Source: Betaproteobacteria bacterium (lineage in GTDB: Bacteria; Pseudomonadota; Gammaproteobacteria; Burkholderiales; SG8-41). From it: a DNA stretch of 48,861 nucleotides. The notes below the pieces were generated by a model. It had not been told where the DNA came from and searched no databases. It saw nothing but the letters and a program-made list of their open reading frames with translations. The stretch lies in contig VGIF01000004.1 in assembly GCA_016868015.1 (NCBI GenBank), positions 1 through 48,861 on the forward strand, written 5' to 3'. Positions 2,259-48,861 of this stretch are shown one piece after another; positions within the stretch are counted from its first letter, which is position 1; each line of letters begins with the position of its first letter. Both the position numbers and the translations under genes were made by a program.

Positions 2259-2285
2259 AAAAATATCAATTAAATCAGATACTTA
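2259..2285 (-). repeat. Dispersed AT-rich IHF-like repeat, copy A (aaaaatatcaattaaatcagatactta)
   Basis: Member of 11-copy family; AATCAGATACTTA, one mismatch to WATCAANNNNTTR. Confidence 0.85.
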
Positions 2286-6845: not shown

Positions 6846-6873
6846 TAAGCGTTTGATTTAATTGACTATTTTT
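6846..6873 (+). repeat. Dispersed AT-rich IHF-like repeat, copy B (taagcgtttgatttaattgactattttt)
   Basis: Opposite strand reads AATCAAACGCTTA, perfect WATCAANNNNTTR; lies between divergent genes. Confidence 0.8.
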
Positions 6874-14213: not shown

Positions 14214-14240
14214 AAAAAAATTAATAAAATCAAATACTTA
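14214..14240 (-). repeat. Dispersed AT-rich IHF-like repeat, copy C (aaaaaaattaataaaatcaaatactta)
   Basis: AATCAAATACTTA with 5' A-tract; between convergent coaE and peptidase C26. Confidence 0.88.
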
Positions 14241-19765: not shown

Positions 19766-20413
19766 TTAAGAGACGGCCTCGCCGCGCGCAAACTTGCCGT
19801 GCCGCAGGAATTCGCAGGTCTGGCGCACCACCAGCGGCGACAGCACCATTTGCGAATGCGTCACCGGCAGCACGATGTGATCGCGCGCATCGGGCACGAT
19901 CGTCTCCGACACGCAGATCGTGCCGTCGTGCGGCTTGGGCAAATCGCGCGCCACCAGCATGCCAAGGCCCACCGAGCGGCCGCCCGCGATGACGCCGATG
20001 TCGTAGTCGGCCAAATGCGTGGGCCGCTCGCCGTGAAACCAATCCGCCACCGTCGCCCCCATCGCCGCGCCGCCGATGCGCACGCGCGCCAGCCGCCGCG
20101 CGGCGTGGCTGCCGGTAAACGGCACGCCGATGAACACCACGCGCCCCACCTCCAGCCGATGCGGCTCATCAAGCATGCGCGCGATCAGCGCGCCGCCCAG
20201 GCTGTGTCCCACCAAATTGAGCGGGCGCGCGTCGAGCGCCTGGCAAAATGCCGTGAGCAGGCGCACGTTTTGCACGAGATTCATGCGCACCGAAGGGTAC
20301 GAATAGGTGTGCACCTCATAACCCGAACGCGCAATCCGCCGCGCCATCCAGCTCAACACAACCCCGTGCATCCACAAGCCGTGGACCAATACCACGTTTT
20401 CGTTCGCCGCCAT
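19766..20413 (-). CDS. Alpha/beta hydrolase
   Basis: MAANENVVLVHGLWMHGVVLSWMARRI…LNLVGHSLGGALIARML. Confidence 0.88.
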   Translation of the reverse strand: MAANENVVLVHGLWMHGVVLSWMARRIARSGYEVHTYSYPSVRMNLVQNVRLLTAFCQALDARPLNLVGHSLGGALIARMLDEPHRLEVGRVVFIGVPFTGSHAARRLARVRIGGAAMGATVADWFHGERPTHLADYDIGVIAGGRSVGLGMLVARDLPKPHDGTICVSETIVPDARDHIVLPVTHSQMVLSPLVVRQTCEFLRHGKFARGEAVS

Positions 20414-21051
20414 CACCAGAACCGCGTCACGCCCACATCCGCCAAATGCTCGACATCGGCCCACGACACTTGCACCCAGGTTTCGGGCTCTCGGCGAAAG
20501 GTGTTCAGGCTCGCATTGAGCAACGGCGCTTCGCGTTTGACTTGCAACGGCAGCTTGTTCGCTGCGCGATACAGCGTATCGAGCACCATGCCGTGCGTGA
20601 CGACAACGGCTTTTTCGCCCGGGTGCGCCGCGGCAATGGCTTCCAGGCCGGCGAGGCTGCGTTCGAAAAACTGCCGCGGGCTTTCGCCGCCAGGCACCGC
20701 ATACTCCGGGTCGCGCCGTGAAAAGCGCGCGTGCTCGGTGGGGTAACGCGTGGTCATTTCGTCGTAAGTCAGCCCTTCGAAAATGCCGAAGGTGCGTTCG
20801 CGCAAGCGCTGATCGCCGACGATGTCATGGCCGCTCGCATCGGCGATGGCACGCGCGGTGTCCCATGCACGCTTCAAATCGCTGCTGTAAATCGCGGCAA
20901 AAGTTTCGCGCGCCAGACGCTGCCCCACGGCCTGCGCTTGCCGCAAACCGATGTCGGATAACGGCGTGTCGGTTTGCCCCTGCATGCGCCGTTCGCGATT
21001 CCACGCGGTTTCGCCGTGACGCACGAGGATCAATTCGGTGTTTTTTTGCAT
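20413..21051 (-). CDS. Histidine phosphatase family protein
   Basis: MQKNTELILVRHGETAWNRERRMQGQTDTPLSDIGLRQAQAVG. Confidence 0.93.
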   Translation of the reverse strand: MQKNTELILVRHGETAWNRERRMQGQTDTPLSDIGLRQAQAVGQRLARETFAAIYSSDLKRAWDTARAIADASGHDIVGDQRLRERTFGIFEGLTYDEMTTRYPTEHARFSRRDPEYAVPGGESPRQFFERSLAGLEAIAAAHPGEKAVVVTHGMVLDTLYRAANKLPLQVKREAPLLNASLNTFRREPETWVQVSWADVEHLADVGVTRFW

Positions 21052-21106: not shown

Positions 21107-21133
21107 AAAAACATAAATTAAATCAAATACTTA
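21107..21133 (-). repeat. Dispersed AT-rich IHF-like repeat, copy D (aaaaacataaattaaatcaaatactta)
   Basis: Perfect WATCAANNNNTTR; overlaps the ATG of the longer histidine phosphatase ORF (21114). Confidence 0.87.
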
Positions 21134-22804: not shown

Positions 22805-23967
22805 CCCAGATAATTCGCCAGCCGATTGACGCCTTCTTGCAGCCGCGCCACCGGGCGGGTGTAGGCAAAACGCACGTGCTCGCGCGCGAGGTGCGCGCCG
22901 AAGTCAACGCCCGGCGTGATCGCGACGCCGGCTCTTTCCAGCACGTCAAGGGCAAAGGCGTAGCTGTCATCGGTCAGCCGCGAACAATCGGCGTAAACAT
23001 AAAACGCGCCTTGCGGCATTTGCGGTATGCCAAAACCGAGCTCGCGCAATGCCGGCACCAGATAATCGCGGCGCGAGCGAAACGCTTCGCGGCGCCGCTC
23101 GCAAATGGCCAGCGTTTCCGGCTCGAACGCGGCGAGCGCCGCGAGTTGCGACACGGTGGGTGGTGATAAAAAAATATTCTGTGCGAGTTTGTCGAGCTGC
23201 GGCACGTAAGCTTCGGGCGCGATCATCCAGCCCAGGCGCCAACCGGTCATGTTGAAATACTTGGAAAAGCTATTAATCACGAATACGTTGTCGCCGGCGT
23301 TGGCGGCGGTGTGTGTGTCACCATCGTAGACGAGCCCGTGATAAATCTCATCGACAATCAATGCACCGCCACGTGCTTTAGTAAACGCCGCCATCGCTTG
23401 CAGTTGCGCGTGCGCAATCAGCGTGCCGGTCGGATTCGACGGTGTCGCCACCAGCACGGCCTTGGTGCGGCTGCCCCAATGGTGTTCGACGAGTTCGGGC
23501 GTGAGTTGATAATGGCTATCGGGCCCAACCGGGATGCCCACGGCCTCCCCCTCGAGCAAGCGCACAAAATGGCGATTCGCCGGATAACCCGGATCGGCCA
23601 TCAACACTTGATCGCCCGCGTTCACCAGCGCGGCAATCGCCAGCAGCAACGCGCCCGACGAACCGGTGGTCACCACCACGCGCGCCGGATCAACCGTCAC
23701 GCCGTAACGCGTTTGATAGAACGCCGCGATCGCCGCGCGCAGTTGCGGCAGGCCCAGCGCCGCGGTGTAAAACACCGCGCCGCGCGCCAACGCCTTGGCG
23801 CCCGCATCGCACACCGGTTGCGGTGTTGCGAAATCCGGTTCGCCGATTTCCAAATGCACAATGTCGCGCCCCGCGGCTTCCAACGCCTTGGCGCGCGCGA
23901 GCAGCACCATCACGTGAAAGGGTTCGATGTCGCGCGCGCGTTGCGCCAGCAGCGCTCCGGGGCTCAT
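22801..23967 (-). CDS. Class I/II PLP-dependent aminotransferase
   Basis: VHLEIGEPDFATPQPVCDAGAKAL…SNPTGTLI…FVINSFSKYFNMTGWRLGWM. Confidence 0.95.
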   Translation of the reverse strand: MSPGALLAQRARDIEPFHVMVLLARAKALEAAGRDIVHLEIGEPDFATPQPVCDAGAKALARGAVFYTAALGLPQLRAAIAAFYQTRYGVTVDPARVVVTTGSSGALLLAIAALVNAGDQVLMADPGYPANRHFVRLLEGEAVGIPVGPDSHYQLTPELVEHHWGSRTKAVLVATPSNPTGTLIAHAQLQAMAAFTKARGGALIVDEIYHGLVYDGDTHTAANAGDNVFVINSFSKYFNMTGWRLGWMIAPEAYVPQLDKLAQNIFLSPPTVSQLAALAAFEPETLAICERRREAFRSRRDYLVPALRELGFGIPQMPQGAFYVYADCSRLTDDSYAFALDVLERAGVAITPGVDFGAHLAREHVRFAYTRPVARLQEGVNRLANYLG

Positions 23968-23976
23968 GCCAGCCTC

Positions 23977-24005
23977 AAAAAATATTCAATTAAATCAATT
24001 ACTTA
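23977..24005 (-). repeat. Dispersed AT-rich IHF-like repeat, copy E (aaaaaatattcaattaaatcaattactta)
   Basis: AATCAATTACTTA, perfect consensus; just upstream of the aminotransferase start. Confidence 0.87.
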
Positions 24006-25611: not shown

Positions 25612-26715
25612 TCACGTTGCGCGCTGCAAATCCTCGATCACCACATTCAAAAACCGCCCCGCCTCGCCGCCCGCCACGGCGCGATGATCGAAGGTAAGCG
25701 ACAGCGGCAGCACGCGGTGCACCACCGGCTTGCCCTCGGCCGCCACCACTTCTTGGCGGATTTTGCCCGCGCCGAGGATCGCCACCGTCGGCGGCACCAC
25801 CACCGGCGAGGCATAACGCCCGGCGATGGTGCCGTAGTTGGACAGCGTGATGGTGTTGCCGCGCAAATCTTCCGGCGGCACCTTGCGCGCGCGCGCATCG
25901 CGCAGCAAGCGATGCAAGCCTTGTTTTAAGTCTTCCGCGTCGCGCTCGCCGACGTTGCGCAACACCGGCACCAGCAAGCCGTCGGGCGTATCCACCGCGA
26001 TGCCCAGATCGACTTTTTTCAACACCCAGCGCCCGGCTTTTTCGTGGTCGTACCAGGCGTTTAACGCGGGCTCGGCTTTGCACGCGGCCACCATGGCGCG
26101 TATCAAACGCAGTATCACCGGTGTGTGCGTGGGCCAGGCGTCGATGTCGGCGTCATCCATGATGGTGGCCGACGCCACCTCGGCGTTGGCGAGTGTCATG
26201 TTCCGCGCCATGGCGCGGCGGATGCCGCGTAAGAGTTCGATCGGCCCTGCCTCCGCCAGCACACGCGCGGCGCGCTGCACGTCGTTGGCGGTGATCAAAC
26301 CGTCGGCGCCGGTGGGTGTCACCATCGACAAATCGACGTTAAGCTTGCGCGCGAGCGCGCGCACCGCGGGTGTGGCTTTGATACCGGCAGTGGTGGGCGC
26401 GGGCGCCGCCGGCGCGGCCGTCACCACGTTTTGCCCCGCTTCGACCACGCCCACCACGGTGCCGGTGTCCGCCGATGCACCTTCGCCTTCAAACGCCACC
26501 AGCGGCGCGTTCAGATGCGCAATGTCGCCGGGGTTGCCATAGAGTTTGACGATCTTGCCCGCGTACGGCGCGGGGATGTCGACGATCGCCTTCGCCGTTT
26601 CCACCGACACCAGCGGTTGATCGACCGCGACGGTGTCGCCGGCGGCAACGTGCCACTTGACGATTTCGGCTTCTTGCAAACCTTCGCCTAAGTCCGGAAG
26701 TTTGAATATTTTCAT
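25612..26715 (-). CDS. 2-oxo acid dehydrogenase E2 (lipoyl acyltransferase)
   Basis: MKIFKLPDLGEGLQEAEIVKWHVAAGDTVAVDQPLVSVETAKAIVDIP…; peripheral subunit-binding domain; C-terminal acyltransferase. Confidence 0.94.
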   Translation of the reverse strand: MKIFKLPDLGEGLQEAEIVKWHVAAGDTVAVDQPLVSVETAKAIVDIPAPYAGKIVKLYGNPGDIAHLNAPLVAFEGEGASADTGTVVGVVEAGQNVVTAAPAAPAPTTAGIKATPAVRALARKLNVDLSMVTPTGADGLITANDVQRAARVLAEAGPIELLRGIRRAMARNMTLANAEVASATIMDDADIDAWPTHTPVILRLIRAMVAACKAEPALNAWYDHEKAGRWVLKKVDLGIAVDTPDGLLVPVLRNVGERDAEDLKQGLHRLLRDARARKVPPEDLRGNTITLSNYGTIAGRYASPVVVPPTVAILGAGKIRQEVVAAEGKPVVHRVLPLSLTFDHRAVAGGEAGRFLNVVIEDLQRAT

Positions 26716-26740
26716 AAGTATTTGATTTTATTGAATATTA
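26715..26740 (+). repeat. Dispersed AT-rich IHF-like repeat, copy F, forming the E1beta/E2 intercistronic linker
   Basis: taagtatttgattttattgaatatta; E1beta stop at 26738-26740 and E2 start at 26713-26715. Confidence 0.88.
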
Positions 26741-32427: not shown

Positions 32428-32454
32428 TAAGTATCTGATTTTAAACAATATTTT
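32428..32454 (+). repeat. Dispersed AT-rich IHF-like repeat, copy G (taagtatctgattttaaacaatatttt)
   Basis: One mismatch to IHF core; shares TTTAAACAATATTTT with copy J. Confidence 0.85.
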
Positions 32455-34936: not shown

Positions 34937-35989
34937 TCACTCCGGCCTCACATTAGCCAACTTAACCACCCGCCCCCACTTCGCAAGCTCCGTCTTAAGA
35001 TAAGCGGTCAATTCCTCCGGCGAACCCGGCGAGGGCAGCGCGCCGTCGGTGATCATGCGTTGCGCGGTGTCGGGTTGCTTTAGCGTATCGACAATCGCTT
35101 TGTTCAACGCGTTGACGATGTCGCGCGGCAGGTTCGCCGGCGCGATCATGCCGCCCCAGCCGAAGGCTTCGAAGCCGGCTACGCCGCTTTCCGCCACGGT
35201 AGGCGTATCGGGCAGCGACGGCATGCGCTGGGCGGTGCTCACGGCGAGGCCTCTGACGCGGCCCGCGCGCACATGCGGCAGCATGCCGGGGATGCTGCTG
35301 AAGGTAAGCTGGGTTTCGCCGGACACCAGCGATATCACCGAGGGCGCGTTGCCTTTGTAGGGGATGTGCAGCATGTCGAGCTTGGCCATCGAGGCAAACA
35401 AGGCGGTGGCCAGATGTTGGCCGTTGCCGGTGCCGGGGGAGGAATAGGCAAGCTCGCCGGGGCGCGCGCGCGCCAGCGCGATCAGCTCTTTCACGTTTTT
35501 CACCGGCAGCGACGGGTGCGCGACCAGGATGTACGGAAAGGTGGAGATCATGGCGACGTGGGTGTAGTCGCGCAGGCTGTCGTAGGGCAGCTTTTTGAAA
35601 ATGTGCGGGTTGATCGCCAGCGGGCCGTTGGAAGTGGCGGCGATGGTGTAACCGTCGGGCGGCGCGTTTTTGGTAGCTTCCATGCCGATGATAGCGGAAG
35701 CGCCCGCGCGGTTGTCGATCAGCACTTGTTGGCCGAGGCGATCGGACATGCCCTTGCCGACGATACGCCCGACGTAATCCACGCCGCCGCCGGCGGGGAA
35801 CGGCACGATCATGCGGATGGGTTTGGCGGGGTAGCTCTGTGCCTGCGTTGCCGCCGGGAGGACGGTCAACGCACCAAGCGCGAGCACCACCGACACGTAG
35901 GGTGCGCAGCGCGCACGCGTTAGGTGTGTGACGTGTGTTTGCGCGTGCGCGGCGCGCACCCTACGAAATTTTTTCTGATCGGTTTTCAT
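34937..35989 (-). CDS. Bug-family (TctC-like) solute-binding protein; N-terminus overlaps a REP-like palindrome
   Basis: SYPAKPIRMIVPFPAGGGVDYVGRIVGKGMSDRLGQQVLIDNRAGASAIIG. Confidence 0.93.
   Translation of the reverse strand: MKTDQKKFRRVRAAHAQTHVTHLTRARCAPYVSVVLALGALTVLPAATQAQSYPAKPIRMIVPFPAGGGVDYVGRIVGKGMSDRLGQQVLIDNRAGASAIIGMEATKNAPPDGYTIAATSNGPLAINPHIFKKLPYDSLRDYTHVAMISTFPYILVAHPSLPVKNVKELIALARARPGELAYSSPGTGNGQHLATALFASMAKLDMLHIPYKGNAPSVISLVSGETQLTFSSIPGMLPHVRAGRVRGLAVSTAQRMPSLPDTPTVAESGVAGFEAFGWGGMIAPANLPRDIVNALNKAIVDTLKQPDTAQRMITDGALPSPGSPEELTAYLKTELAKWGRVVKLANVRPE
35896..35965. repeat. REP-like palindrome CGTAGGGTGCGCAGCGCGCACGCG…CGCGTGCGCGGCGCGCACCCTACG
   Basis: Near-perfect inverted arms with two mismatched positions; related to 2177-2234. 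Confidence 0.87.
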
Positions 35990-36975
35990 TGTGCTTTCAA
36001 CCCCGCTTCTTTGACCAGCCGCGTATAGCGCTCATATTCGGTTTGCATGAGTTTGGCGAACACCGCCGTCGAGGTATCCGCCGGCACTTCGGCGCCGCCG
36101 CGCAGCAGGGTTTCCTTCATCTTGGCGTCCGCCAGCAGCCGCGAGACGTCGGCGCTTAATTTTTTCACCACCGCGCCCGGCGTGGCGGCGGGGCCGACCA
36201 GGCCGAACCAGCCGTCGGACGTGGCTTCGGGCAGGCCCGCCTCGCCCACGGTGGGCAAATCGGGCCACGCCGGCGAGCGGCGCGAGCCGCTGGTGGCGAG
36301 CGCACGCAGGCGCCCTTCGCGCACGATGCCGGAGGCCGAGGGTATGGTGAACAGAAAATAATGCACGCGGTCGTTGATCGCCTCGCCGAATGCGTCACCC
36401 AACAGCTTGAACGGCACGTGCACCTGTTTGGTGTTCGCCGCGCGGTTAAACAACTCGCCCGCGATGTGCGCGAGCGAGCCCACGCCGACCGAGGCGAAGT
36501 TGTATTTGCCGGGGTTCGCCTGCAGCAGCGCCACCAACTCCTTGACGCTTTTCGCCGGCAGCTTGGGCGAGACCACCAGGAGATTCGGCACCAGCGCCAC
36601 GCCCGCCACCGGCGTGAAATCCTTCACCGGGTGATACGGCGGGTTGGCGTTCAACAACGCCGCCATGGTGTGCGGCGGCGCCACCATCACCAGCGTGTAG
36701 CCATCGGGCGTGGCTTTGGCGCCGAGACTGCTGCCGATCAAGCCGCCCGCGCCGGGGCGGTTATCGACGACGACGGGTTGTTTGTACTGTTCGGTGAGCG
36801 GCGCAGCCAGTGTGCGCGCGATGAAATCGGTGGCGGTGCCCGGCGGCAGCGGCACGATCAAACGCACCGGGCGCGCGGGGTAGGCCTCTTGCGCCAGCGG
36901 CGCGCCCGCGGCAAGCGCGGCGGTTGTCGCAATAAATATATGTAAGTATTTGATTTTATTCACTATTTTCCTCAT
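35986..36975 (-). CDS. Bug-family (TctC-like) solute-binding protein; signal peptide encoded in a dispersed AT-rich repeat
   Basis: MRKIVNKIKYLHIFIATTAALAAGAPLAQEAYPARPVRLIVPLPPGTATDFIARTLAAPL; longer ORF start rejected. Confidence 0.9.
   Translation of the reverse strand: MRKIVNKIKYLHIFIATTAALAAGAPLAQEAYPARPVRLIVPLPPGTATDFIARTLAAPLTEQYKQPVVVDNRPGAGGLIGSSLGAKATPDGYTLVMVAPPHTMAALLNANPPYHPVKDFTPVAGVALVPNLLVVSPKLPAKSVKELVALLQANPGKYNFASVGVGSLAHIAGELFNRAANTKQVHVPFKLLGDAFGEAINDRVHYFLFTIPSASGIVREGRLRALATSGSRRSPAWPDLPTVGEAGLPEATSDGWFGLVGPAATPGAVVKKLSADVSRLLADAKMKETLLRGGAEVPADTSTAVFAKLMQTEYERYTRLVKEAGLKAQ
36943..36969 (+). repeat. Dispersed AT-rich IHF-like repeat, copy H (taagtatttgattttattcactatttt)
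   Basis: Perfect IHF core on the minus strand; codes KIVNKIKYL of the Bug signal peptide. Confidence 0.87.
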
Positions 36976-36977
36976 GG

Positions 36978-37850
36978 TTATTGAGGCCTTACGCCTCTTA
37001 TTGTTATGCGATGCATCACGCGCCGCTCGCCGTAATCGGCCAGCGCGTAGTGCTGCGTGATGCGATTGTCCCACACCACAACGTCGCCCTCGCGCCAGCG
37101 ATGGCGCACTTGAAATTCCGGCGTGCGCAAGTGCTCGAACAAGTAATTTAGCACCGCCTCGCCTTCCTTGCGCTCGACGCCGAGTAGCCGCGTGGTGTAG
37201 CCCTCGTTCACGTAGAGCAATTTTTTGCCGCTGACCGGGTGCGTGCAAATCACCGGATGTTCCGCGGGCGGCTGCGCCTTGATGCGTTCGAAGCGTTGCC
37301 TACCTGCCTGGTCTTTCCATAGATGGCTGCGAATATCGTCGCCGAAGGCCTTCACCGTTTCGTGCTGCGCGCGCAGGCCGGCGAGATACTGTTTCATGCG
37401 CGCGGAGAGCGCCTCGTACGCCGCGGCGAGGCTCACCCAAATGGTGTCGCCGCCGGAGGACGGCACTTGCAATGCGTAGAGCACCGAGCCCATGGTCGGT
37501 TCGGCGCGCCCGGAAAAATCGGTGTGCCACATTTCCTTGGTCACGTACGGCGGGCGCGTGGCGTCGTAATCAAGCACGTCGATTTCGGGAAAGCCTTCAA
37601 GTTTGCCGAACGACGATTCGCTCGCCGGCTGCGGCTCGCCGAAGCGCCGCGCGAATGCCACCAGTTGCGCCTGGCTTAACCGCTGGCCGCGCAAGAAAAT
37701 CACGTGATGCGTCATCAGCGCGGCGTGCACTTGCGCGAATTGCGTATCGCTTAGCGTGCCGGCATCGACGCCTTCGATCAACGCGCCGATGGCGGGCGTT
37801 GTGGGCGTGAGCTTAAAGCCGGCGCGGACGGCACTCGACGCGTGATTCAT
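36978..37850 (-). CDS. TauD/TfdA-family 2OG-dependent dioxygenase
   Basis: FLRGQRLSQAQLVAFARRFGE…EMWHTDFSGRAEPTMGSVLYA…GDVVVWDNRITQHYALADYGERRVMHRITI. Confidence 0.94.
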   Translation of the reverse strand: MNHASSAVRAGFKLTPTTPAIGALIEGVDAGTLSDTQFAQVHAALMTHHVIFLRGQRLSQAQLVAFARRFGEPQPASESSFGKLEGFPEIDVLDYDATRPPYVTKEMWHTDFSGRAEPTMGSVLYALQVPSSGGDTIWVSLAAAYEALSARMKQYLAGLRAQHETVKAFGDDIRSHLWKDQAGRQRFERIKAQPPAEHPVICTHPVSGKKLLYVNEGYTTRLLGVERKEGEAVLNYLFEHLRTPEFQVRHRWREGDVVVWDNRITQHYALADYGERRVMHRITIRGVRPQ

Positions 37851-37855
37851 GTATT

Positions 37856-37883
37856 AAAAAATATCAATTAAATCATATACTTA
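37856..37883 (-). repeat. Dispersed AT-rich IHF-like repeat, copy I (aaaaaatatcaattaaatcatatactta)
   Basis: One mismatch to IHF core; between divergent TauD and cupin genes. Confidence 0.86.
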
Positions 37884-44612: not shown

Positions 44613-44640
44613 AAAAATATTGTTTAAAATCAAATACTTA
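44613..44640 (-). repeat. Dispersed AT-rich IHF-like repeat, copy J (aaaaatattgtttaaaatcaaatactta)
   Basis: Perfect IHF core; subtype shared with copy G; between pabB and DUF924 gene. Confidence 0.88.
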
Positions 44641-44649
44641 AAGTAGCAG

Positions 44650-45231
44650 CTAAAAACGCGAATCGGGCCCCTGCAAGAACTCGATCTCGGCTGGCGTCGA
44701 GGCGCGCCCCAACGCCGCGTTGCGATGGGGGAAGCGCCCGAAGCGTTCGACGATCACCAAGTGCTTGCGCGCCCATTCCAGTAAATCCGCGCGGCCCGGC
44801 TCTAGCGCCAGTTGGCCGAACAAGCGCATCGATTCGTGCTGCATCGCCAAGTCTTCGCTGTGCTCAAAAGGCAGATAAACGAACTGCCGTTGCACGCCGA
44901 GCAAACGCCGATCCCAGTCGCGCGCTAACATCTTCCGCGCACACTCTAGCGCCATCGCATCGGACTCGAACGCGCGCGGCGAATCGCGAAACAAATTGCG
45001 CGCAAACTGATCGCACACGATGATCAACGCCAGCAGCGGCAACGGGCTCTCGCGCCAGTGCGCCAACGCGCCCGCGCGGGCTTGCTCGTACAGCGGCAAA
45101 AAACGCTCGCGGATCAGCGCATCGAACGCATCGGACTTTTTAAACCACTCGGCGCGCGATTGGCCGTAACTCACGCTGCCCGGCGCGCCGAACCAGAAGT
45201 CGAGCACCGCGCTCCAATTGCTCGCATTCAC
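44650..45231 (-). CDS. DUF924 family protein
   Basis: VLDFWFGAPGSVSYGQSRAEWFKKSDAFDALIRERFLPLYEQARAG…CDQFARNLFRDSPRAFESDAMAL. Confidence 0.93.
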   Translation of the reverse strand: MNASNWSAVLDFWFGAPGSVSYGQSRAEWFKKSDAFDALIRERFLPLYEQARAGALAHWRESPLPLLALIIVCDQFARNLFRDSPRAFESDAMALECARKMLARDWDRRLLGVQRQFVYLPFEHSEDLAMQHESMRLFGQLALEPGRADLLEWARKHLVIVERFGRFPHRNAALGRASTPAEIEFLQGPDSRF

Positions 45232-46124: not shown

Positions 46125-46299
46125 AAGCGCTCCTGGGAATTTTTTTGTGCGGCGCTGTTCGCCGCCAAGCGGAGAACGTTGCGTGAGATTGATTTAACCA
46201 ACGAACGCCGTGCGGCGCAACCGCAACTCGCGCCGCACGGCGTTGTGCTTGCATTAGCACAGTGCTAGGCTTGTCGCGCGTCTTAAACCAGGAGGCATC

Positions 46300-46728
46300 A
46301 TGAAACATAAGTATTTGATTTTATTAAATATTTTTATACTGAGCCTGGTGACTGGTTGTGCGCAGTTGCCGCCCACGCCAGCCGATATCCATGCAAAAAA
46401 ATTCGAGGCTCTGCCCGACAAGGCGGTGATCTACATCGTGCGTCCGCTGGTGGACGGCAACGTGCACGGACCGCTGTCGATACCCGGCGGCATGATCGCC
46501 ACACAGCCCGGCACCTACTACCGCTGGGAAGGTCCGCCGGGCACGCATCACATCAGCGGTGCGGCGGCGTGGGGCGCGTCCGTCACCCTGCAAACCAAAG
46601 CCGGCGAAATTTATTTTGTCGAACAAATCGCCACCGGCGACGCGCGCGACGGCTTGAAGACGATGTCGCTGCGGCGTATTGATGAAGCGCGCGGCCGGCG
46701 CATGGTCAACCAGGCCTCGCTGCTGTAG
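46300..46728 (+). CDS. DUF2846-like lipoprotein; signal peptide encoded by a dispersed AT-rich repeat
   Basis: AGGAGG RBS; MKHKYLILLNIFILSLVTGC lipobox; DKAVIYIVRPLVDGNVHGPLSIPGGMIATQPGTYYRWEGPPGTHHIS. Confidence 0.82.
   Translation: MKHKYLILLNIFILSLVTGCAQLPPTPADIHAKKFEALPDKAVIYIVRPLVDGNVHGPLSIPGGMIATQPGTYYRWEGPPGTHHISGAAAWGASVTLQTKAGEIYFVEQIATGDARDGLKTMSLRRIDEARGRRMVNQASLL
46308..46335 (+). repeat. Dispersed AT-rich IHF-like repeat, copy K (taagtatttgattttattaaatattttt)
   Basis: Perfect IHF core on minus strand; lies within the signal-peptide codons of the 46300 lipoprotein. Confidence 0.88.
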
Positions 46729-46732
46729 CGGC

Positions 46733-47197
46733 ATGGTTCGGCGCCCGCGCGGCCCTGGTTTCGCCGTGCTGTCGGGCCTGCTGGCGCTGCTGGCGGCGTG
46801 CGCTTCCACGCCGCAGGCCACGCACGAACGCGACCGCGAGGCCAAACAATTCGGCACGCATCCGGCGAGCGCCACACTGTATGTGTATCGCCTGGACAGC
46901 GGCGCCGAGGACAGCGCGCTATGGATCAACGAGCGGCTGATCGGCGCGACCTTGCCTTACACCTATTTTCGCGTGCACCTTGATCCGGGCCGGCACACCT
47001 TGAGCGGCGTGGGCGCGGACAACGGGCGGCTAACCCTCGATGTGCGCGCCGGCGCGCTTTACTTTGTGGCGCTGACGGTGCAGGCCGGGCAATCGTTTTA
47101 TCAGCCGGTGCCGCAGAGGGTTGGGCGCGAAGTGGTGGCCAAATGCTGCCATTTATTGGAAAACTGGGCGCCCGCGCAGCGGCCCTTGCTCTGGTGA
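46733..47197 (+). CDS. DUF2846-like lipoprotein (tandem relative of 46300)
   Basis: Lipobox [53 protein letters not shown]. Confidence 0.8.
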
Positions 47198-47582: not shown

Positions 47583-48659
47583 ATGAAGCAATTTCGCATC
47601 GCAGTCATCCCCGGCGACGGCATCGGTAAGGAAGTGATGCCCGAAGGCTTGCGCGCCCTTGAGGCGGCCGGCCGTAAATTCGGCATCGAATTCAAATTCG
47701 ACGAATTCGACTGGAGTTGCGACTACTACGCCAAACACGGCAAGATGATGCCCGACGACGGCCTTGAGCAATTAAAGCAACACGACGCGGTGTATTTCGG
47801 CGCCGCGGGCTGGCCCGCCACCGTGCCCGATCACGTTTCACTGTGGGGGCTGTTGATCCCATTTCGCCGCGGCTACGACCAATACGTCAACCTGCGCCCG
47901 GTGCGCTTGATGCCCGGCATGAAATGCCCGCTCGCTAATCGCAAGCCCGGTGACATCGATTTTTGGGTGGTGCGCGAAAACTCCGAAGGCGAATATTCCT
48001 CGGTGGGCGGGCGCATGTACGCCGGCACCGAGCGCGAATTCGTCACCCAAAACGCGGTGTTCTCGCGCAAGGGCACCGATCGCATTTTGAAATACGCGTT
48101 CGACCTTGCCGCGTCACGCCCGAAAAAACATCTGACCTCCGCCACCAAATCCAACGGCATTTCAATCTCCATGCCGTACTGGGACGAGCGCGTCGCCGCG
48201 ATGTCGCAAAACTACCCCGGCATCAAGGTCGATCAATTCCACATCGACATTTTGTGCGCGCACTTTGTAATGCACCCGGATTGGTTCGACGTGGTGGTGG
48301 GCTCCAATTTATTCGGCGATATTTTGTCCGACCTAGGCCCCGCCGCCACCGGCACCATCGGCATCGCGCCCTCGGCCAACATGAATCCGGAAAAGGCGTT
48401 CCCCTCGCTGTTCGAGCCAGTGCACGGCTCCGCGCCCGACATCTACGGCAAAAAGATCGCCAATCCTGTCGGCATGATCTGGGCCGGCGCGATGATGCTC
48501 GATCACCTGGGCTGCCCCGAAGCCGGCGCCGCCATGGTGAAAGCGATTGAAAACGTGCTGCAGGAAGGCCCCAAAACGCCCGATCTCGGCGGCAGCGCCA
48601 AGACCGATGACCTGGGCAAGGCGGTGGCGGAGATGCTTAAGAATACGCTGATCAAGTAG
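47583..48659 (+). CDS. Tartrate dehydrogenase-like member of the isocitrate/isopropylmalate dehydrogenase family; C-terminus lies in IS end
   Basis: RIAVIPGDGIGKEVMPEGLRALEA…WVVRENSEGEYSSVGGRMYAGTEREFV…FEPVHGSAPDIYGKKIANPVGMIWAGAMML. Confidence 0.92.
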   Translation: MKQFRIAVIPGDGIGKEVMPEGLRALEAAGRKFGIEFKFDEFDWSCDYYAKHGKMMPDDGLEQLKQHDAVYFGAAGWPATVPDHVSLWGLLIPFRRGYDQYVNLRPVRLMPGMKCPLANRKPGDIDFWVVRENSEGEYSSVGGRMYAGTEREFVTQNAVFSRKGTDRILKYAFDLAASRPKKHLTSATKSNGISISMPYWDERVAAMSQNYPGIKVDQFHIDILCAHFVMHPDWFDVVVGSNLFGDILSDLGPAATGTIGIAPSANMNPEKAFPSLFEPVHGSAPDIYGKKIANPVGMIWAGAMMLDHLGCPEAGAAMVKAIENVLQEGPKTPDLGGSAKTDDLGKAVAEMLKNTLIK

Positions 48660-48861
48660 GTAAAAGGTGCGCCCGAGGAAAGCGATGATGCCGATTATGC
48701 GAAATGAATGCTGATTTCATCAGGCCGAAGGCGCTTTCGATGTTTAATTCGGTGTTTTTCGCCGTTTTAGGCTTCCGCTGCACGCACTTATCCCGTGAGC
48801 GGCCTATCCCATTTGTAAATGTTCACCATCGCCAGCATCGCAAAGGCGCGATTGGCGTTCT
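48643..48861 (-). mobile_element. Second IS copy in inverted orientation: transposase C-terminus NANRAFAMLAMVNIYKWDRPLTG* (stop at 48788-48790) and IS terminus
   Basis: Inverted copy of window start; partial transposase reading frame runs off the right edge. Confidence 0.78.

Follow-up and report, generated by a model that had tools for sequence, protein, structure and literature searches.

How does a lipoprotein gene come to open with a copy of a repeat that recurs throughout the genome around it? We address this question for a gene at 46300-46728 of a 48,861-nucleotide betaproteobacterial contig, analyzed in full and called the window here. A preliminary description had proposed that the repeat was recruited at this locus as a secretion signal.

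The lipoprotein gene and its repeat copy

The ribosome-binding site, the ATG at 46300 and the lipoprotein with a VTGC box that the preliminary description had read from the DNA are all present (Table 1). The lipobox is L-V-T-G-C, with the Cys codon TGT at 46357-46359, and by eye the cleavage point falls between MKHKYLILLNIFILSLVTG and C. Judged by rule, MKHKYLILLNIFILSLVTGC has the basic n-region, the hydrophobic core and the lipobox ending in Cys that are expected of a lipoprotein, and the signal peptide very probably still works, as far as its sequence indicates. The protein and its tandem neighbor at 46733 both match Pfam DUF2846 (PF11008), the first with 25.7 bits (E 1.2e-5), below the gathering cut-off of 34.3, and the second with 37.5 bits, above it. 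The neighbor has the ordinary GC-rich signal peptide that had been ascribed to it. Orthologues with 42-62% identity occur in the genus and the family, and the named relatives are betaproteobacterial metagenome assemblies, one of them filed under Burkholderiales. A plasmid search returned no match to the gene region.

The exact 18-mer TAAGTATTTGATTTTATT lies inside the gene, at 46308-46325. It is read in the motif's only stop-free + strand frame, AAG TAT TTG ATT TTA TTA AAT ATT TTT, and the hydrophobic core KYLILLNIF is thus indeed encoded by a repeat copy, which accounts for most of the signal peptide (n-region and core). The repeat had been given as 28 bp, which is too short: the motif is about 39 bp long and takes in the ATG region and the T-tract. 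This copy has the second-best profile score in the window, and at 64.9 bits it has not been weakened by sitting in a gene.

Table 1. Features of the window, and copies of the motif found in signal peptides at other loci.
Feature	Location	Strand	Basis
AGGAGG ribosome-binding site	46290-46295	+	direct reading
DUF2846-related lipoprotein gene, 142 aa, MKHKYLILLNIFILSLVTGC...	46300-46728	+	ORF call, Pfam, orthologues
Signal peptide, 19 aa before lipobox Cys	46300-46356	+	direct reading, aligned to orthologues' signal peptides
Full-length copy of the 39-bp motif (64.9 bits), with core TAAG...TTTT at 46308-46334	46300-46338	+	exact-word search, profile
Tandem DUF2846 lipoprotein, ordinary GC-rich signal peptide without motif	46733-47197	+	ORF, Pfam
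Motif copy, intergenic	2268-2285	-	word search
Motif copy, intergenic	6846-6863	+	word search
Motif copy, intergenic	14223-14240	-	word search
Motif copy upstream of gene 20413-21051 (- strand)	21116-21133	-	word search, profile
Motif copy about 20 bp upstream of ATG at 23967	23988-24005	-	word search
Motif copy; 5' edge (CTTATG on - strand) gives ATG of E2-like gene 25612-26715 (MKIFKLPDLGEGL)	26715-26732	+	
Motif copy, intergenic between divergent genes	32428-32445	+	word search
Motif copy; reverse complement encodes MNKIKYLHIFIATTAALAAGAPLAQ, signal peptide of TctC/Bug-like gene	36943-36960	+	
Motif copy directly upstream of ATG at 37850	37866-37883	-	word search
Motif copy directly after stop codon of gene 44650-45231	44623-44640	-	word search, ORF call
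Motif in signal peptide of efflux outer-membrane lipoprotein, MKSRKYLILLIFLFSLGGC	L047		
Motif in signal peptide of CcmH-like protein, MKIRKHWILLIFLFYAWGAAQAVHA	L114		
Reverse strand of motif in signal peptides of TctC/Bug-type binding proteins	L034, L049, L118 (twice)		
Reverse strand of motif in signal peptide of lipase-like lipoprotein	L046		

An abundant, evenly spaced motif

The motif is AT-rich and non-palindromic, and runs from an AT tract through YR-TAAGTATTTGATTTWATT-GA to a T tract (full consensus WWWWWWYR-TAAGTATTTGATTTWATT-GAWWTTTTTWW). We find no hairpin in this consensus and no terminal inverted repeats. Eleven sites in the window lie within three mismatches of the 18-mer, where shuffling predicts 0.01, and the 4.55 Mb genome holds 890 copies split almost evenly between the strands (444 +, 446 -), against a single match (1 + 0) for a reversed-pattern control. 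A 39-position profile built from 92 copies finds 105 sites of at least 30 bits in 446 kb and none with the reversed control. In 830 kb of the genome, on which our statistics for spacing, coding location and codon use rest, there are 192 copies and none in the control.

These copies stand about 4.3 kb apart with a coefficient of variation (CV) of 0.56, below all 500 shuffles of each of two null models, random intergenic placement (CV 1.05) and one copy per intergenic region (CV 0.76). Most of the 192 are intergenic (154), while 15 extend across the end of a gene and 23 lie inside called genes. Among convergent intergenic regions, about one in four contains a copy, and orientation relative to co-directional genes is without bias (52 same, 64 opposite). 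The motif carries 42.7 bits of information, versus the roughly 13 needed to mark 1000 sites. Its outer positions take A or T at random and avoid C and G, although the GC content of the genome is 61%. Flanks that are random A/T rather than fixed indicate a constraint on composition, and indicate that the copies did not arise by recent duplication of a single master.

Several side observations accompany the motif. By script, CTTATG, the motif's 5' edge on the other strand (window 26713-26717), supplies the ATG of 5 genes in the 830 kb that have no evident Shine-Dalgarno sequence, and TAAG of the motif supplies the stop codon of 6. Four viral contigs (L197-L200) hold an exact 21-base motif match, and are possibly phages or proviruses of motif-bearing hosts. 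A Methanofastidiosum contig reading MKHKYLIL (L056) was set aside as a chance match, since its genome is AT-rich, the protein that follows is unrelated and its motif scores are weak. Neither 17-base motif core was found in the papers that a literature search covered. The window, which is a whole contig, carries a 189-bp inverted repeat, 98% complementary, at 1-189 and 48637-48825; this is probably the repeat that broke the assembly.

Copies that arose in place

Conserved genes record how some copies came about. The copy in lysS (L048:13455, 37.8 bits) occurs only in the source genome, G000, and all 19 other alignable sequences have the same codon number there. At the murD copy (L044:10211, 35.8 bits), alignment with the 12 other genus members shows no gap, and several murD orthologues already hold AATAAAATCAAT, a partial motif match. 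The gap-free alignments indicate that at these two loci the copies arose in place, and Redfield and colleagues excluded insertion as the origin of USS by the same argument (PMC1626085).

At the 46300 gene, a lipoprotein signal peptide stands at the same place in nearly all orthologues (for example MRYVIFSLMVFVTAGC in G004 and MRYIILSLMVFVAAGC in G012), those of L009 and L013 being without a clear ATG in our extraction. Since motif-free orthologues have lipoprotein signal peptides of their own, the signal is older than the motif at this locus. The proposal of recruitment is thus supported as regards what the copy encodes, the n-region and core of the signal peptide, but not as an account of where the secretion signal came from. 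Only the G002 orthologue carries the motif at the same codons (ATGAAACATAAGTATTGGTTTTTATTGAGTTTTTTAG, MKHKYWFLLSFLVSAC; 53.3 bits in a dialect-neutral scan), and its signal peptide is the same length as the motif-free one of G004; that of G000 is 4 residues longer than either. In G010 and G018 a copy instead lies upstream of the orthologue, in the intergenic region, and G004, G012 and G008 have no copy near it. These differing positions suggest that in some species a copy is kept in the neighborhood while its place moves. The pattern that the preliminary description would have taken to refute its proposal, the same N-terminal amino acids under diverged DNA in distant orthologues, is not seen: the amino acids of distant orthologues differ.

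Signal peptides as hosts of the motif

Allowing for alternative starts, the 23 copies inside called genes become about 35 coding copies in the 830 kb. At least 9 of these encode signal peptides, far more than expected for N-termini that account for about 1.2% of coding bases (P ~2e-10); gene starts and protein classes in this count come from a simple gene caller and sequence reading, and one of the two L118 cases is a short ORF. The copies in TctC/Bug-type genes (L118:3460, L118:6377, L034:19776, L049:17003 and window 36943, the last in a - strand gene at 35986-36963 with a GTG start at 36963) use two frames, MNKIKYL and KKYSIKSN. The + strand of the motif reads Lys-Tyr-Leu-Ile-Leu-Leu and the other strand (Met)-Asn-Lys-Ile-Lys-Tyr-Leu. 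Because both strands read as basic and hydrophobic residues, signal peptides are the coding places where the motif is best tolerated. A genome-wide DNA motif superimposed on an existing, sequence-tolerant signal peptide is a better reading of the 46300 locus than recruitment.

Dialects and codon constraint

The motif differs among relatives at position 10, which is A in G000 (95%), T in G001, G010, G013 and G018, and mixed in G002, where the dialect is perhaps in transition. A frequent variant of positions 11-18, TTTTAAAC, also occurs in G002 beside the mixed position 10 (L107-L111).

The efflux lipoprotein shows what the motif does to coding sequence over longer times. Nine other genus members have the motif in its signal peptide in the same frame (23-52 bits), and four more distant relatives have ordinary signal peptides without it; the match in G006 stopped short of the N-terminus. 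In these signal peptides TTA or TTG makes up 94% of Leu codons, versus 30% in all genes and 34% in signal-peptide-like N-termini, and TTT makes up 96% of Phe codons, versus 47% genome-wide. That the motif is kept in such uncommon codons argues that the DNA is constrained, and not the peptide alone. The peptide reads YLILL in G000 and YLFLL or similar in relatives, matching the position-10 dialects, and this one locus would fit a concerted dialect change inside coding sequence.

Competence genes and distribution

ComEC and DprA are present in 13 of 13 motif-bearing genus members. The only motif-less genome among the 14 of the genus is G009, with 39 motif matches versus 17 in the control; in this assembly (97% complete) neither ComEC nor DprA was found, and ihfA, ihfB, lysS and murD were. 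Competence may have been lost in G009 before the motif decayed, as an uptake sequence predicts; as a single event, this is moderate evidence for one. Across the family, four genera (g1, g6, g7 and g8) carry the motif and others do not. Many family members have ComEC without the motif, which is compatible with an uptake function (competence without specificity) but does not inform on it.

Interpretation and alternatives

We consider it probable that the repeat serves self-recognition, as a DNA motif akin to the uptake sequences USS and DUS, and is not a mobile insert. Properties that mark those elements recur here, namely over-representation on both strands, origin by substitution, regular spacing, dialects, and competence genes with one joint loss. 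Competent cells, presumably with a receptor for the motif, would preferentially take up fragments that carry it, and recombination with such fragments, together with substitutions that improve the match, would build up and then maintain one copy every 4-5 kb at tolerant places. Most of these places would be intergenic and, within coding DNA, signal peptides; at 46300, the motif would have come to lie over the older lipoprotein signal peptide. We lean, with less assurance, towards the broader view that this is a third independent sequence-specific DNA uptake system, in a family known mainly from metagenomes, in which the motif rewrote signal peptides and some enzyme interiors, the protein following DNA uptake.

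Some features count against an uptake function. No known uptake sequence, to our knowledge, reaches the length or the AT content of this motif. About 80% of its copies lie between genes, a larger share than for USS or DUS. No ComEC was seen in one motif-bearing genome of the family, G046 (91% complete). Signal-peptide coding is enriched for the motif here, the opposite of Neisseria, where a gene set including phase-variable and signal-peptide genes is depleted of DUS (PMC2397512).

The strongest rival we found is that the roughly 900 copies are consensus sites for IHF or a similar nucleoid protein, evenly spread, organizing the chromosome and kept by selection. Even spacing and intergenic preference would suit such sites, and the reverse complement of the G000 consensus, AAAAW-9 nt-AATCAAATACTTA, fits the IHF consensus, WATCAANNNNTTR, exactly, with an A-tract upstream of the IHF-like core at nearly the lambda H' distance. 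However, the T dialect (TTTGTTTTTATT), which is that of most of the genus, breaks WATCAA, and motif-bearing genomes do not all keep the WATCAANNNNTTR core. IhfA and IhfB, for their part, have arms that are virtually the same in genomes of different dialects and in G009, which has no motif, and we reject IHF as the driver given this lack of covariation with dialect. Neither ihfA nor ihfB was matched in the motif-bearing G010 (91% complete), unlike in the 13 other genus genomes. Further conserved motif positions lie outside the IHF consensus, unlike in a site of the lambda H' type, and its 43 bits per site greatly exceed what selection on individual binding sites would require. We regard this explanation as unlikely. 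As an observation in its own right, the fit to the IHF consensus suggests that DNA bending may matter for the motif.

A dispersed mobile repeat (a MITE, REP or similar), one copy of which was captured at a start codon as a signal peptide, would account for the very high copy number and strong consensus, and the 4 extra residues of the G000 signal peptide relative to G002 and G004 would allow a small insertion at the 46300 locus alone. The motif nevertheless has no terminal inverted repeats, its flanks are degenerate A/T, it fits into G002 without a change of length, and its spacing is too even for random insertion. The absence of gaps at lysS and murD largely refutes insertion, and we hold this alternative to be very improbable. 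Least probable of all is a regulatory element (a promoter, part of a terminator or a leader) acting on adjacent genes, with the signal-peptide copies as a co-regulated set: many copies do lie some tens of bases or less from a start or stop codon, and some supply the ATG or TAA itself, but the lack of orientation preference and of a hairpin rejects a promoter or intrinsic terminator, copies occupy convergent regions and sit deep inside lysS, murD and other genes, and no single functional gene class is seen.

If a third uptake motif is indeed what we observe, its unrelated sequence, together with a sister species lacking both motif and competence genes, offers an independent test of how such motifs originate and decay. 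The signal-peptide cases would illustrate a drive at the level of DNA that changes proteins, as the hydrophobic segment is spelled in codons that these genomes use little elsewhere, since it is the DNA word, and not the peptide, that is kept. For annotation, care is warranted with start codons and N-termini that overlap the motif.

Comparison with known systems

High copy number and a mainly intergenic location are shared with REP, ERIC, BOX, RUP and Correia repeats, from which the motif differs in being non-palindromic, in having no terminal repeats, and in its in-place origin in conserved genes. Strong uptake-motif preferences have been described in two families, Pasteurellaceae and Neisseriaceae (PMC7811141). 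Like the USS of Pasteurellaceae (core AAGTGCGGT and two AT tracts in Haemophilus influenzae), the motif has many hundreds of copies on both strands, AT tracts flanking a core, dialects, gene-associated competence, an origin by substitution, and the anomalously strong consensus that is typical of USS (PMC1626085), as well as a bias to gene ends (PMC2346458). Unlike USS, it has an unrelated AT-rich core without a GC-rich center, extends over about 39 bp, recurs every 4.3 kb or so rather than about every 1 kb, is mostly intergenic, and belongs to a betaproteobacterial family. With the DUS of Neisseriaceae (ATGCCGTCTGAA and its dialects; PMC3630211) it has in common that its hosts are betaproteobacteria, that dialects occur within one family, that its locations are permissive (PMC2397512) and that some genes start at the motif (PMC2346458); it differs in its unrelated, longer and AT-rich sequence, and hairpin pairs are not seen here. 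Dialects (PMC3630211), permissive locations (PMC2397512), and gene-end bias with genes starting at the motif (PMC2346458) are thus already known for USS and DUS. What is new, we infer from these genomes, would be a motif resembling uptake sequences that occurs in betaproteobacteria of a family known largely through metagenomes and that uses signal peptides as its permissive coding sites.
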